Source of the DNA: a virus
IMG/VR virus record: IMGVR_UViG_3300047320_000285
Location: 1 to 64,000 of that record
Strand: one strand, 5' to 3'
Length of the DNA: 64,000 nucleotides
Shown: positions 1 to 35,641 of the stretch, piece after piece
Position numbering within the stretch: position 1 is the first letter of the stretch
Layout: each line of letters begins with the position of its first letter
The notes under the pieces: model-generated
The model's input: only the letters and a program-made list of their open reading frames with translations
Told to the model about the DNA's origin: nothing
Databases searched by the model: none
Position numbers and translations under genes: made by a program

Positions 1-321
1 CGATTCAATACCAAACCGCTCCACACCACTCGCCAACCGGTACAAGCCTTCTTCGATCCATTCGATCTTGGAGGGCAAGCGCCAGTGACGCTTGGTCGGC
101 AGACAAATGATCTTGCGACCATCCGTCTCAAAGATAAACAACCCGTCTCGCTTGAATACAGCCGCTTTACAGGCTCGCTGGTATGCGGCGAGTAGGCCAG
201 GGTAGGTATTGGCAAACGCCAACGCCAGACCCTTACCCATCACGCCCACCGTGTTGACGGGACACACCAGTGATTGCGCGCCACTCTGAAGAATGTCGCC
301 CTCTGTTTCTAACACAATCAT
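1..321 (-). CDS. Macro domain protein, DarG/TARG1-like (3' end beyond window)
   Basis: Partial gene; ATG at 321, reading leftward off the window edge after 107 codons without a stop. The translation begins MIVLETEGDILQ and contains a CPVNTVGVMGKGLALAF motif at about residues 20-36, followed by PTKRHWRLPS at about 75-84 and an IEEGLYRLAS helix. These are hallmarks of the DarG/TARG1 branch of macro domains, which bind ADP-ribose and remove ADP-ribose from DNA or protein. By family knowledge it may reverse host ADP-ribosylation, for example DarT-type DNA modification used in anti-phage defence; that role is inference. Its ATG overlaps the TGA of the upstream frame as ATGA, so it is probably translationally coupled to the virion-type gene before it. 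The length and any C-terminal DarT-binding part cannot be seen. Confidence 0.8.
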   Translation of the reverse strand, partial: MIVLETEGDILQSGAQSLVCPVNTVGVMGKGLALAFANTYPGLLAAYQRACKAAVFKRDGLFIFETDGRKIICLPTKRHWRLPSKIEWIEEGLYRLASGVERFGIES

Positions 322-785
322 GGCTGCTCTCCTGCCAGTTGTCGCATCTGACGCAGACCTTCTTCCCCGACCTTGTTGTTTTCCTTCTGGCGTTTGATGG
401 CCAGTTCTTCGACATACTCGCAAATCTCGCGAGGCAGCGATAGGAAGTCAATCAGGTTAAGGCCGAACTTCTGGTAGACTTGACGCTCTTCAAACCGTTC
501 GATTCGCTCAAACAAAGGCCCGTTAGTTCTTTCCGCGTCTCGCATCAGCACCAAAGCCAAGGGATGTTCTCGGTCGTTACCATGATCGTGATCGAAGATC
601 CCGAACTTGGTTTCGTAATGGTGCCGCATCAAGAGCTGCGCGTCGGTAGAGCAGATCTTGGGGACGTAGCGCAACAGGGTATCGAACATCCCTTGCACGT
701 CGGCGTCATCCCCAAAATCGGCTTGTCGTACGTGTTTGTACGTTACCGGGTCAGAATCTGCGGGAGCTTTTGTCTGAGCAGGGTA
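318..785 (-). CDS. -1 frame extension of the 743-2353 gene (or separate small protein from GTG 698)
   Basis: This open frame lies one base back from the preceding gene. It is open from a TGA just upstream of a T TTT TTT heptamer (plus-strand A run 785-791) to its own TGA at 318-320. After a -1 slip, translation would add 155 residues starting YPAQTKAPADSD and ending MRQLAGEQP. The residues between the slip and the first usable starts (GTG 698, ATG 689) read like normal protein (DPVTYKHVRQADFGDD), which argues that the frame is entered by frameshifting. The segment ends in a helical FGLNLIDFLSLP-type stretch, loosely like small T4 baseplate-hub proteins. Alternatives are an independent gene starting at 698, or a one-base sequencing error in the T run. 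Function unknown. Confidence 0.65.
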   Translation of the reverse strand, partial: YPAQTKAPADSDPVTYKHVRQADFGDDADVQGMFDTLLRYVPKICSTDAQLLMRHHYETKFGIFDHDHGNDREHPLALVLMRDAERTNGPLFERIERFEERQVYQKFGLNLIDFLSLPREICEYVEELAIKRQKENNKVGEEGLRQMRQLAGEQP

Positions 786-2353
786 AAAAAAGTCGTCAGT
801 GCGTCAATCGGCAGCAAGTGCGGCATGCGCGGGAACTTCTCTTCCTCGCGCTCGTCGACCGTCGGCACGGCGATAAAGGCCACCGTCGTGTCTTCCGCGT
901 ACTTGATCACTTCATTCATGATCAAATCGCGCGCTTTGTCGTCCGAGCTAAACAGGTTGAGCTGGTCTTCGATGGTTTCCAGATCGGTCACCACCGAGGT
1001 ACCCAGTTCCACCGACTTCACCCAGTGGCCGTATTGACGCAACAGCGTCGCCTTGCCCTGATTGGTGATGTAGGTGTTGCGCTCTGCGTCGTCCTGATCC
1101 ATGCCAAACACGCGGTTGGTCATGGTGACGATGTTGTTGACCCACTTCTGACCGCTGATCAGATGCTCGTCGACCGAGGGCACCGCCAGATTGACATGCA
1201 CGTTGTCGTTGAGCGAGATCCGGCGCTCACCGCGAATCGTGAAGTCTTTCTGATAACGATCGAGGTCATCGTTCGTCATCGAGCCAATCGTGATATTGGC
1301 CATGTGCTTGATCTGCCAGTCGGTCATGCTGGCCACGTCGATCCATTGCAGCTTGGAGACGTTGATCTTGCCTTCCACCACGCGGTTCTTCTCCGGCGTT
1401 TCGCCGAGGACCGCGCGCGCATACTGGAAGCCATTGGGCCAGATCGAACAGGCCGAACCCCACGCCATGTGCTGAATGTCGTGGATCGAGATGCGCTTGG
1501 CGATGTTCTCGCGGCTCGAGTCCTTGAGCGTGGTCGAGACCATATGCGCCAGAATAAACTGCATCACGTGGTCGACGATAAACACCGACGCATTGGAGAA
1601 CAGCAGGCCGGCGGTCGCGCGTCCCAGTGCGATCTTTTCTTCGGCGAGCTTGCGATCCAGTTCGAGAATCGCGGCTTCGTCCGGTGTCTTGATGGTGATC
1701 CAGAAACCCGAGTTCCACAGCGGAATCCGATACTGACCACCCAGACCCATGTAGGCACGGGTGCGCATCAGCGCCTTCTCGCCCGACAGAATGGCGTTGT
1801 CGTCGTCGCCCAGCTTCGGCTTGGTAATGCCCAGCGCGCGGCCGTTATGCTCCACCACCTGCCGCCACTTCGCGCCGTCCCGTGCGCCGAGCGTGTCGTT
1901 CATGTCCAGCCGCGGCTGGTGCGCGATACCGAGGCCTGCCGCGGTAATCCACTTCTCGTCCTTGACGAGGCTTTCCTGATCGCCCTTGCTGTAGGCTTCG
2001 AGCGTATCTTCCAGCAAGCCCGCCTGCTCATCGGGCACGACCAGCGTAATGGCGTCATCGTTCCACGGATCATCGAGCTTCTGGAACACCGGGAACTGCT
2101 GCAGCACGGTGGTGCTCGGTGCCCGCACCGGACGCGTTTGCCGTTCATCGGCTTCGGGTTCAGCCGCTTGTTCAGCCGGGACTTCAGCCACCGGGTCGCT
2201 TTCTTCCGCACCCGCCATCGGATCGAGGTTCGACGCCAGCGCCGTGGTAGCCGGGTCGATCATCGCGGGGTGCTGCACGAGCGCTTCGCTACTGGCTGCG
2301 CCCGGTGCCACATTTCCGCTGGAAGCTTGTTCTTGATTGGTAGGGTCGCTCAT
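743..2353 (-). CDS. Virion or assembly-type protein, 536 aa, ends at a frameshift site
   Basis: ATG at 2353, four bases after the TAA of the upstream gene, so co-transcribed and probably coupled. The first ~75 residues are low-complexity, acidic and Ala/Glu/Pro-rich; the remainder is a folded, mostly helical protein with a WNSGFWITIKTP segment near residue 215 and a GSACSIWPNGF segment near 300. I do not recognise the family. The zero frame ends only 13 codons after a perfect T TTT TTT slippery heptamer, and the -1 frame is open for a further 155 codons, giving a possible 678-aa product. Such short/long product pairs are typical of phage tail-assembly proteins, but these are larger than the usual chaperones. 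Role in tail or baseplate assembly is inference. Confidence 0.75.
   Translation of the reverse strand: MSDPTNQEQASSGNVAPGAASSEALVQHPAMIDPATTALASNLDPMAGAEESDPVAEVPAEQAAEPEADERQTRPVRAPSTTVLQQFPVFQKLDDPWNDDAITLVVPDEQAGLLEDTLEAYSKGDQESLVKDEKWITAAGLGIAHQPRLDMNDTLGARDGAKWRQVVEHNGRALGITKPKLGDDDNAILSGEKALMRTRAYMGLGGQYRIPLWNSGFWITIKTPDEAAILELDRKLAEEKIALGRATAGLLFSNASVFIVDHVMQFILAHMVSTTLKDSSRENIAKRISIHDIQHMAWGSACSIWPNGFQYARAVLGETPEKNRVVEGKINVSKLQWIDVASMTDWQIKHMANITIGSMTNDDLDRYQKDFTIRGERRISLNDNVHVNLAVPSVDEHLISGQKWVNNIVTMTNRVFGMDQDDAERNTYITNQGKATLLRQYGHWVKSVELGTSVVTDLETIEDQLNLFSSDDKARDLIMNEVIKYAEDTTVAFIAVPTVDEREEEKFPRMPHLLPIDALTTFFTLLRQKLPQILTR
785..791 (-). other. Candidate programmed -1 ribosomal frameshift site
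   Basis: Seven A on the plus strand read as T TTT TTT on the coding strand, in the exact X XXY YYZ register with the zero-frame codons ACT TTT TTT ACC. The zero frame stops 13 codons later; the -1 frame opens only six codons before the slip and continues to 318. A short CGTAC/GTACG hairpin lies about 40 nt downstream; I see no strong pseudoknot. Confidence 0.55.
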
Positions 2354-2356
2354 GGC

Positions 2357-2929
2357 TTAGGCCACCTTTGCTTCAGTGCTCGGGACGTCCTTGACCTCGA
2401 CGTCGATCACGTCGTGGTTGTTCGGGTCCTGATGCTTGTTCTTCTCGGCTTCTTCCGCCTGAATCTGCGCTTCGACGTTAGCGAGCTTGGCTTCGGCTTC
2501 CGCGGTCTGCTCGAGCAGATGGTTGAGCACCGGCTGGCAGGTCCGACGGTACGCTTCCATGAACTGGATGTACTGTTCGTAGACCGACAGCGACAGCGCA
2601 AAGTCATCCGGCGTTTTCGAGCTACCGGTCTTGTGTTTGTGCTGGTCGTAAATCTTCGACAGCGCGCCCGACAACTCGGCGGTGTCTTTGGCCAGCAAAC
2701 GGATGTTCTCGTTGAGCATGGCTTTGTCGGTCACAGCCGGATACACGCCCGGTTGTTTGAGCACGAGATCGATCGCGGCGGCTTGCTGGAGCAAGTCCAC
2801 ACACTGACCGTTCAGCGCATGGCAGTCGTCCCAGCTGTTGTTGCCCTTGATCGCCCCCGACGCCTCGCGTTGCTTCTGACGACGCGCGACTTCTGCCGGG
2901 CTCGGACCCTTCTTACCTTTCTTAGCCAT
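2357..2929 (-). CDS. Hypothetical 190-aa helical protein
   Basis: ATG at 2929 opens the minus-strand operon. The N-terminus is strongly basic (MAKKGKKG then an arginine/lysine-rich stretch to residue 22), the middle is helical with a few Cys residues, and the tail from about 145 is a charged Glu/Lys/Ala helix followed by an acidic end, suggesting a coiled coil. Family not recognised. It is immediately upstream of the 536-aa frameshift gene and shares its operon, so a tail- or baseplate-assembly role is a reasonable guess only. Confidence 0.7.
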   Translation of the reverse strand: MAKKGKKGPSPAEVARRQKQREASGAIKGNNSWDDCHALNGQCVDLLQQAAAIDLVLKQPGVYPAVTDKAMLNENIRLLAKDTAELSGALSKIYDQHKHKTGSSKTPDDFALSLSVYEQYIQFMEAYRRTCQPVLNHLLEQTAEAEAKLANVEAQIQAEEAEKNKHQDPNNHDVIDVEVKDVPSTEAKVA

Positions 2930-6564: not shown

Positions 6565-7257
6565 CTATTCAAGTTCGTGGAAATAGGCAGAAAAGATGGG
6601 TTCTTCTGGTACATAGTGACCAGTCCAGCCTTTATGATGGGGTCGCTTTCCTCTGAAAACTGCCGACATATTTGCCTGTTCAAGGTTATTTGCCTGACAG
6701 AACTCAGTAAGATTCCTACCCTCGTGAACTCGACCATCTAGTCCAGTGGCGACAAAATCTTTCGCAAGCTTGTCTGTTCGAACCGCCACACCCTCATGAT
6801 TCCCTTTAGTTCGCCCCGTGACCAGTTCGGCCCGTTTGGCAATGTATTCGTGTGTTTCTTTAGTTCGCCCTTTCTGAGCCTCAGAAATGCGCCGATAGTA
6901 GTCAGATGTTTCCTTGGTCTGACCCCTCAGTGCGTCGACCCAGTTGTTTCTTCCATTTTCCCATGCCTCTTGTCGGTTTTGTAGACCCGTCACAAAACGA
7001 CAATTGTCATTGGTATAGTGACCTTGGTCTCCATGGCGTGCCAGTACGAACTGGTCGTTGCGTTGCCCAATCTGGTCGGAGCTTTGGACGCCAGCCTCCC
7101 TGACTTTCTGAAGATAATTCTCGAAAGTTAAATCAGTCTGAAGTCCTCTCCGAGGGGCACCATGGTGGTGATAAGAGAACTTGGCGAAGAGCGATTTTGT
7201 CTCTTCCATCTTAAAACCAAGCCGTTCAACAACCGCTATTTTTTCTTCGCTTTTCAT
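6565..7257 (-). CDS. Homing endonuclease, HNH/NUMOD type
   Basis: 230 aa from ATG 7257 (MKSEEKIAVVERLGF); upstream in-frame codons run into the oppositely oriented endolysin gene and are excluded. Residues 66-90 carry an HNH-like NDQFVLARHGDQGHYTNDNC signature. Three NUMOD3-type repeats follow (GQTKETSDY 112-120, GRTKETHEY 130-138, GRTKGNHEG 148-156), then a helix-turn-helix of the IENR1/NUMOD1 type (RNLTEFCQANNLEQANMSAV, 181-200). This is the standard layout of phage homing endonucleases, which cut an unoccupied allele and spread by repair. The coding strand is visibly AT-richer than its neighbours, and it sits 12 bp from the endolysin start, as expected of a recent free-standing insertion. 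No intron splice structure was found. Confidence 0.85.
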   Translation of the reverse strand: MKSEEKIAVVERLGFKMEETKSLFAKFSYHHHGAPRRGLQTDLTFENYLQKVREAGVQSSDQIGQRNDQFVLARHGDQGHYTNDNCRFVTGLQNRQEAWENGRNNWVDALRGQTKETSDYYRRISEAQKGRTKETHEYIAKRAELVTGRTKGNHEGVAVRTDKLAKDFVATGLDGRVHEGRNLTEFCQANNLEQANMSAVFRGKRPHHKGWTGHYVPEEPIFSAYFHELE

Positions 7258-7269
7258 GAGAGGCACCAA

Positions 7270-8136
7270 ATGCTTACGGGATATTATGAAGTTGGTGGTA
7301 CTAAGTATAACATAGATCAAGATTACACAAAAGGTATTCAGAAGACACTCGCCCAGAAACTGGTGCAAGATATTACCATCGACGGGAACTTCGGTCCGGC
7401 CTCCATCGCGGCGCTGACCAAGTTCCAGTTGCAAAGCGGCGTACCGACCACCGGGGTGTATGACCCGGCGACCCAAGCCGTGGTCGAGCCGTTCCTGCTG
7501 AGCCACTTCGTGACGCGGGCTGACTTCCAGAATGCGGCCAATGAACTGGGTGTACCAATTGCAGCGGTGAAAGCCGTGCAAGAAACCGAAACTTCGGGCT
7601 CAGGCTTTGCTTACACAGGTCGGGTACGGATTCTGTTTGAGCGCCACTGGATGGCCCGGTTTCTGTCAGCCAAGCTGCCGTCGGCGCAGTACCAGAAACT
7701 CGCGCTTGCGAACTCGGACATCATCAATACGACGCCCGGCGGTTACGCTACCGGTCCGACCGCGGATGCGCGTTCGATTGCCGAGTACACGCGTTTCTCG
7801 CGCGCGTTTGCCATCGATGCGGACTGTGCCATGAAATCGGCCAGCTGGGGCCTGTTTCAAATCATGGGTTTCAATGCCAACTTCGCGGGCTTCAAGAACG
7901 CCGATGGCACCCCCAGCACCGGTCCGTTTGTGGATGCGATGAAGAGCAACGAACAAGCCCAGCTGCTGGGCTTCGTGAGCTTTATCAAGACCTACAACGG
8001 TGGTGCGTTGTGGATGGCGATGAAGAACAAAGACTGGGTGACGTTCGCGCGGATCTATAACGGCTCGGCGAACGTGGCACATTACTCACAAGTCATCGGG
8101 ACGAACTTCAGCAACTTCAGCGCGATGTACGCGTAA
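7270..8136 (+). CDS. Endolysin: N-acetylmuramidase with N-terminal peptidoglycan-binding domain
   Basis: 288 aa from ATG 7270 behind GAGAGG; the longer in-frame start at 7162 lies inside the opposite homing endonuclease gene and is rejected. Residues 20-75 form a PG_binding_1 domain (TIDGNFGPASIAALTKFQ, then GVPTTGVYDPATQAVVEPF). Residues 85-288 match the N-acetylmuramidase family (PF11860): AVKAVQETETSGSGF with the likely catalytic Glu at 107, ILFERHWMARF at 121-131, SASWGLFQIMG, and a C-terminal FARIYNGSAN. It should cleave the glycan strand of host peptidoglycan at lysis, or act in the virion at entry. There is no signal peptide, so release would need a holin not identified here. Confidence 0.92.
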   Translation: MLTGYYEVGGTKYNIDQDYTKGIQKTLAQKLVQDITIDGNFGPASIAALTKFQLQSGVPTTGVYDPATQAVVEPFLLSHFVTRADFQNAANELGVPIAAVKAVQETETSGSGFAYTGRVRILFERHWMARFLSAKLPSAQYQKLALANSDIINTTPGGYATGPTADARSIAEYTRFSRAFAIDADCAMKSASWGLFQIMGFNANFAGFKNADGTPSTGPFVDAMKSNEQAQLLGFVSFIKTYNGGALWMAMKNKDWVTFARIYNGSANVAHYSQVIGTNFSNFSAMYA

Positions 8137-34738: not shown

Positions 34739-35641
34739 ATGTCTTTTTTCCAATACGCATCACTGAACGATCTGGTTCGCGCGATCAATGCCGCGAACGG
34801 GACCTCGTTCTTGCTGACGGATTTGTCGTTCTCGAATCCGAAAGTCGTCGCTGGCACGTGGCAGGGTAATAATTCCGACCGCAACTCAGCGATCAAGGCA
34901 ACCGCGGCCGCCCCAGCTTTTCAGGGCTCGCAGGTTGTGCTGTATAACCGGCTTGATCTGGGCCAACTTATCGCGCTACCCGGTGCCCGGCTGAAGCTGC
35001 CGGGCACCGTCACCCACGTGTGGGACTGCTTGCCGATGCTCAAGTTTTACTTCGGCATCAGCTTCGTCCAAGGAGATCTGCAGAACACCGCGGTGACCGT
35101 GGGTGGCGATGGGACGGGCACGCTGAACATCACCGCCGATCCGAATTCGATCGGCTGGCAAGGTAGCGTGGCAATTCCGTTCACGGCCGGTGGTTCACCG
35201 ATCGATGTTGCGGTAGCAACCACGCAGCTGCCGGGTCTGAACTATCCGGTGGGTGATCCACCCTCGGTGCCGGGCACGTCGGTCTACGGTCCGGCTTATC
35301 TGTATCCGTACGACTTCACCACCTACACGCCGACCATCATCAACTACACGCCGGGTGTGCTCACCACTCCACAGGCGGACTTCTTGGTGGCGGCGTTGGC
35401 GGCGTTGGACATCGGTGCCGGTAAAGCACTCTGGAACGATACGACCTCGGGCGGCACGTTCACGACGTGGAACTTGACGGGTGCGACGATTGTCTCGAAC
35501 GGGTTGAATGACCCGATCAACAATCCGACCAATCCGGCCTACAAGTACGTGATGGTGCTCCAGTTGCGGGCGGATGTCACGATCCCGACTGGCTTGCTGT
35601 ATCTGCACTATAACGACCCGTTCGACCCGAACAACTTCTAA
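34739..35641 (+). CDS. Fibre-array protein, domains A + B
   Basis: 300 aa, ATG 34739, 9 nt after the previous stop. Domain A: LVRAINAANGTSFLLTDLSF, AFQGSQVVLYNRLDLGQLIA, LKFYFGISFVQGDLQNTA, SIGWQGSVAIPFTAGG and the LPGLNYPVGDPPSVPG junction. Domain B: YPYDFTTYTPTIINYTPGVL, ALWNDTTSGGTFTTWNLTGA and GLLYLHYNDPFDPNNF. Last of the five compact A+B genes and followed by a hairpin. Confidence 0.75.
   Translation: MSFFQYASLNDLVRAINAANGTSFLLTDLSFSNPKVVAGTWQGNNSDRNSAIKATAAAPAFQGSQVVLYNRLDLGQLIALPGARLKLPGTVTHVWDCLPMLKFYFGISFVQGDLQNTAVTVGGDGTGTLNITADPNSIGWQGSVAIPFTAGGSPIDVAVATTQLPGLNYPVGDPPSVPGTSVYGPAYLYPYDFTTYTPTIINYTPGVLTTPQADFLVAALAALDIGAGKALWNDTTSGGTFTTWNLTGATIVSNGLNDPINNPTNPAYKYVMVLQLRADVTIPTGLLYLHYNDPFDPNNF

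Follow-up and report, generated by a model that had tools for sequence, protein, structure and literature searches.

A conserved programmed -1 frameshift in phiKZ-like phages, probably yielding a pair of unusually large tail assembly chaperones

Main finding

We describe a gene of phiKZ-like phages in which a conserved programmed -1 frameshift would yield an unusually large pair of tail assembly chaperones (TAC-N and TAC-NC), a reading to which we give a probability of about 78%. The frameshift itself is near-certain, about as sure as comparative genomics allows. The tail-chaperone role of the predicted pair is suggested by a modest profile match to T4 gp26 and by a shared slip architecture. 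We hold more tentatively, at slightly under even odds, the fuller reading in which both forms have also become two to three times as large as usual in the phiKZ-like lineage. To our knowledge, the phiKZ-like pair would be the largest frameshifted tail chaperones known.

Two conserved families of "hypothetical" phiKZ-like proteins become halves of one frameshifted gene, and for that reason their annotations, those of phiKZ gp77 and gp76.4 included, should be merged. The pairs gp77/gp76.4, gp74/gp73 and gp136/gp135 are annotated as separate proteins wherever we looked them up, and a description of a phiKZ-like frameshift was not found in the literature searched or in the annotations read. The reading offers a testable role for genes without one, it would link the tails of jumbo phages to the T4 assembly pathway, and it adds a ribosomal slip that is deeply conserved and occurs in all the relatives we examined.

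The locus and its slip site

The window analysed here is the first 64 kb (64,000 nucleotides) of a viral record of 253,740 bases. The record is of phiKZ-like type, with matches to an RNA polymerase beta subunit (phrog_2962) and a DNA polymerase (phrog_3011). The features of the locus are collected in Table 1.

Table 1. Features of the frameshifted locus, with positions in the window.
Feature	Position	Strand	Evidence
Zero-frame ORF, 536 aa, short product	743..2353	-	translation, tblastn, PHROG match E=7e-109 (phrog_4585 / phrog_8054)
Slip heptamer T TTT TTT (zero-frame ACT TTT TTT)	785..791	-	sequence, register
-1 frame segment running 155 codons past the slip, predicted C-terminal domain of the 678-aa product	318..791	-	PHROG match E=3e-26 (phrog_12109)
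Stop of the -1 frame	318-320	-	translation
Stretch read in two frames	743..784	-	alignments
Upstream gene of 190 aa, located where phiKZ has gp78	2357..2929	-	gene order kept in the relatives read
Macro-domain ORF downstream, cut off by the window edge	1..321	-	PF01661 E=2e-4, just under the cut-off; phrog_335 ("phosphatase") E=4e-18

The original prediction had placed a T TTT TTT heptamer in the zero-frame register, 13 codons short of the point where the 536-aa gene stops, and re-reading the run and its register agrees: there are exactly seven A on the + strand, and 13 sense codons separate the slip from the stop. The heptamer is a slippery X XXY YYZ in the zero-frame register and sits inside the overlap of both frames. 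Translating the ORF and the joined frame gives the same sizes as first proposed, 536 and 678 aa, for two predicted products of one gene with the N-terminal part common to both. The -1 frame is open, also as described, up to an ATGA at 321-318 that joins its end to the macro-domain ORF. One detail changes, as the -1 frame had been said to open six codons ahead of the heptamer, and it opens four codons ahead of the two Phe codons (RTDD/FF). Past the slip, the doubly read stretch encodes the 13 codons TLLRQKLPQILTR plus a stop in the zero frame, and YPAQTK... in the -1 frame. Both readings are recognisably conserved in the alignments, as FFTL.xQK in the zero frame and as FFYP... in the -1 frame.

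Conservation among relatives

A tblastn search matches the 536-aa protein in 164 phage records; for the -1 segment the number is 25. The relatives that we read are 28 GenBank phiKZ-like phages (phiKZ, PhiPA3, 201phi2-1, Psa21, Noxifer, Phabio, Eowyn, Moabite, PCH45, SPLA10, Simmy50, STsAS, Wellington, marine and Vibrio phages, and others) and 98 distinct IMG/VR loci, 126 relatives with 115 distinct sites. The first ORF ends at a T-rich slip of the Phe-Phe type in 28/28 GenBank relatives (one is Leu-Phe and one Phe-Leu) and in 98/98 IMG/VR loci. The -1 frame stays open for 149-175 codons past the slip in 27/28 GenBank phages and for 150-203 codons in 98/98 distinct IMG/VR loci, where the +1 frame mostly closes much earlier. 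In RVTF4 (PQ015378, 4125-4304) the -1 frame is shut 58 codons after the slip, and it is open in the close relatives D6 and Psa21; the shortened extension reflects a genuine lesion or else an error in the sequence. The programmed frameshift originally proposed is supported by a site and a -1 extension in all 126 relatives, that of RVTF4 being short, and a single continuous ORF, which had been named as the outcome that would count against it, occurs in 0/126.

The commonest form of the slip across relatives is T TTT TT[T/C]. By class, the 115 distinct sites divide into T TTT TT[T/C/G/A] (91), G/A TTT TT[T/C] (18) and six other variants, T TTT ATT being among the rarer ones. The six-T form T TTT TTC is found at 29 sites and the five-T form G TTT TTC is also present, with an identical codon register.

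Homologs of the 536-aa ORF are phiKZ gp77, PhiPA3 gp74 and 201phi2-1 gp136, and those of the -1 segment are phiKZ gp76.4, PhiPA3 gp73 and 201phi2-1 gp135. The second half is annotated in nearly every genome as a separate hypothetical protein, usually cut to a downstream start codon. Because the site and the -1 frame are conserved and selected, we take each of these pairs to be the halves of one frameshifted gene. In the relatives, the short form measures 476-687 aa and the C-terminal part, RVTF4 aside, 149-203 codons.

A CxxC pair, a possible zinc site, occurs shortly before the slip in most relatives (L003, L004 and L008 are examples) and in T4 gp26 as well; the window protein and that of FLC9 have none there.

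Similarity to T4 gp26 and gp51

One annotated relative carries the name T4 gp26. Pfam and PDB sequence searches with both domains gave nothing convincing. A search of this genome with PF12322 had no match, and control genomes likewise gave none.

The signal appears in profile comparison. Using hhalign, we aligned the profile of the ORF1 family, that of the short form, with a profile of T4 gp26/gp51 plus marine gp26, and obtained a score of 44.0, a pairwise E of 3.5e-5 and an HHalign probability of 72%. The aligned region covers the final ~120 columns of the short-form profile, and both sides end at the FF slip. As controls, the best of 60 column shuffles scores 21.3, the reversed profile 15.9, and the neighbours gp78 and gp79 score 12.0 and 19.4. 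Restricting the comparison to the marine sequences gives a score of 32.1 and lowers the HHalign probability to 16%. The C-terminal domains match weakly (17.2 vs 15.9 for the best shuffle). A fusion profile compared with the marine long form scores 33.2, below the gp26 comparison; one hand-built row in it is mis-joined, and we do not rely on it.

In T4, gp26 and gp51 both match PF12322 and, judged by their sequences, are paralogs, gp51 resembling gp26 with one more domain added at the C-terminus. Both are listed as T4 hub assembly chaperones (PMC3004832). In marine T4-like phages, gp26 ends at T TTT TTC in S-RIM8 and in 73/73 distinct loci (L209:2971-3866, L210-L289). The -1 frame after the marine slip reads straight into the gp51 region. 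In S-RIM8 that region is annotated as "baseplate hub assembly catalyst", and its sequence can be aligned to the end of T4 gp51. The marine gp26/gp51 frameshift is probably already known at least in part, and we claim no novelty for it.

Comparison with known systems

The T4-type gp26/gp51 pair is among the closest known systems (PF12322; Vladimirov, Gautam and Davidson 2022, Virology 566:9-15, cited in PMC12846349). In both systems the short form ends at FF and the long form consists of a similar N-terminal part and a C-terminal domain, and the marine members have T TTT TTC at the slip and a continuing -1 frame. Unlike in the phiKZ-like phages, the two forms are separate paralogous genes in T4. 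The sizes also differ, with a short form of 208-242 aa and a C-terminal part of about 60 codons in the T4 type, both well below the phiKZ-like ranges, and so does the gene neighbourhood.

Lambda gpG/gpGT (PMC5009743) has in common with the proposed phiKZ-like pair that many short and few long products come from one gene by a -1 slip near its 3' end; the lambda products are absent from the virion (PMC5009743). In contrast, its slip sequence is different, its proteins are much smaller, and its gene adjoins the tape measure gene. The TAC of Pakpunavirus and Vandenendeviridae (PMC12846349) resembles the phiKZ-like locus in its T-rich slip, in a -1 frame open in all genomes, and in the annotation of that frame as a separate hypothetical gene. 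Its slip is an invariant GTTTTT (PMC12846349), and G TTT TTT occurs among the phiKZ-like phages too. It lies upstream of the tape measure gene, whereas none is recognised beside the phiKZ-like locus.

Function of the pair

By analogy with these systems, many copies of the short form (putative TAC-N) would attach to the tape measure or hub, the rarer long form (putative TAC-NC) would recruit tail tube subunits, and both would depart before the tail matures. Of the tail-assembly layout first suggested, the frameshift part stands, and the tail role is supported less strongly, by the gp26 profile, the marine architecture and the lack of annotation as virion proteins. In the 201phi2-1 and phiKZ records, neighbouring proteins are marked as MS-identified or structural, and gp135/136 and gp77/76.4 are not so marked.

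It is also conceivable, if unlikely, that the frameshift is real and the pair serves some other core phiKZ-like function, for example the loading of the virion RNA polymerase or head assembly. The neighbours in relatives would suit such a function, as they include gp78-like, RNA polymerase subunit, structural head protein and helicase genes, and none is a recognised tape measure gene; T4 gene 26 is likewise not directly beside gene 29. The size of the short form, far above that of known TAC-N proteins, and the assignment of both domains to PHROG families of unknown function would suit it as well. The profile similarity to T4 gp26, which ends at the same slip, and the identical slip architecture in the marine gp26/gp51 argue instead for the tail chaperones.

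Mechanism of the slip

In the proposed mechanism, the majority of ribosomes would terminate in the zero frame, giving the 536-aa short product, and a fraction, with two tRNA-Phe on T TTT TTT, would slip back one base and continue translation in the -1 frame. The long product of 678 aa would keep the first 523 residues in common, with a 155-residue C-terminal domain replacing the last 13. Both the slippage itself and its rate are inferred. That both products are made is argued by the conserved zero-frame end. The site classes would permit slippage in different ways: at T TTT TTY two tRNA-Phe can re-pair one base back, at G/A TTT TTT the A-site pairing would be kept after the slip, and at T TTT ATT a P-site slip would still be possible. 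Shine-Dalgarno-like stimulators show no enrichment (3/115 sites, vs 6.5 in the control), and downstream structure shows a slight tendency only (mean z of -0.49, vs -0.27 in the control). The T run itself is therefore probably the main signal.

T runs can also cause transcript slippage, and these phages encode RNA polymerases of their own, such that the polymerase and not the ribosome might join the two frames. We consider this very unlikely. Many relatives have only six T (the T TTT TTC sites) or five T with the register unchanged, variants such as T TTT ATT suit P-site slippage, and in the marine loci six T are followed by C in 73/73. Since the register and the Phe-Phe pair are conserved, also at the sites with five or six T, tRNA slippage is favoured over RNA polymerase slippage.

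Translation of the -1 frame

The first ATG, GTG or TTG in the -1 frame comes at a median of 33 codons past the slip and as late as 151; in phiKZ the earliest is codon 85. The original prediction held that the stretch between the slip and the first start reads like real protein, and the substitutions support it. Where the -1 frame has passed the ORF1 stop and not yet reached a start, 14 independent pairs of relatives differ by 35, 21 and 86 substitutions at the first, second and third codon positions. On this pattern, the -1 frame is selected at the protein level before any possible start codon, and since selection is seen without an available start, the ribosomes must come from upstream.

A separate gene, translated from an internal start through reinitiation or coupling, is what the annotations of nearly every genome would imply. 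We reject it as less probable still than transcript slippage, given the third-position bias ahead of any ATG, GTG or TTG and the late starts, as at codon 85 in phiKZ; in the window, the early -1 frame starts have no clear ribosome-binding site. Seven-base homopolymers are error-prone on some platforms, and a misread or misassembled T run, or a broken gene, is nevertheless rejected as having a negligible chance, as 126 independent relatives share the same frame relation.

How unusual the site is by chance

With the codon usage of the window (Phe TTT 245 and TTC 520; Thr ACT 103/1339), Thr-Phe-Phe is expected to be spelled ACT TTT TTT ~0.8% of the time. There is one other in-frame TTTTTT among about 50 crudely called window ORFs, a rough null in which a shadow ORF was chosen over the real gene at this locus. 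We reject the length of the -1 frame by itself as evidence: a long -1 frame is not unusual in the window, because the next gene of the operon often occupies that frame. The evidential weight comes from the conservation in relatives and the lack of a usable start.

The other in-frame TTTTTT belongs to a T TTT TTC in a gene encoding 300 aa (34739-35641, +), where it occupies codons 3-4 and no long -1 frame accompanies it. Elsewhere in the window, the C-terminal half of the ORF at 6565-7581 (-) resembles a phage endonuclease-type protein, as judged by eye from the translation alone.
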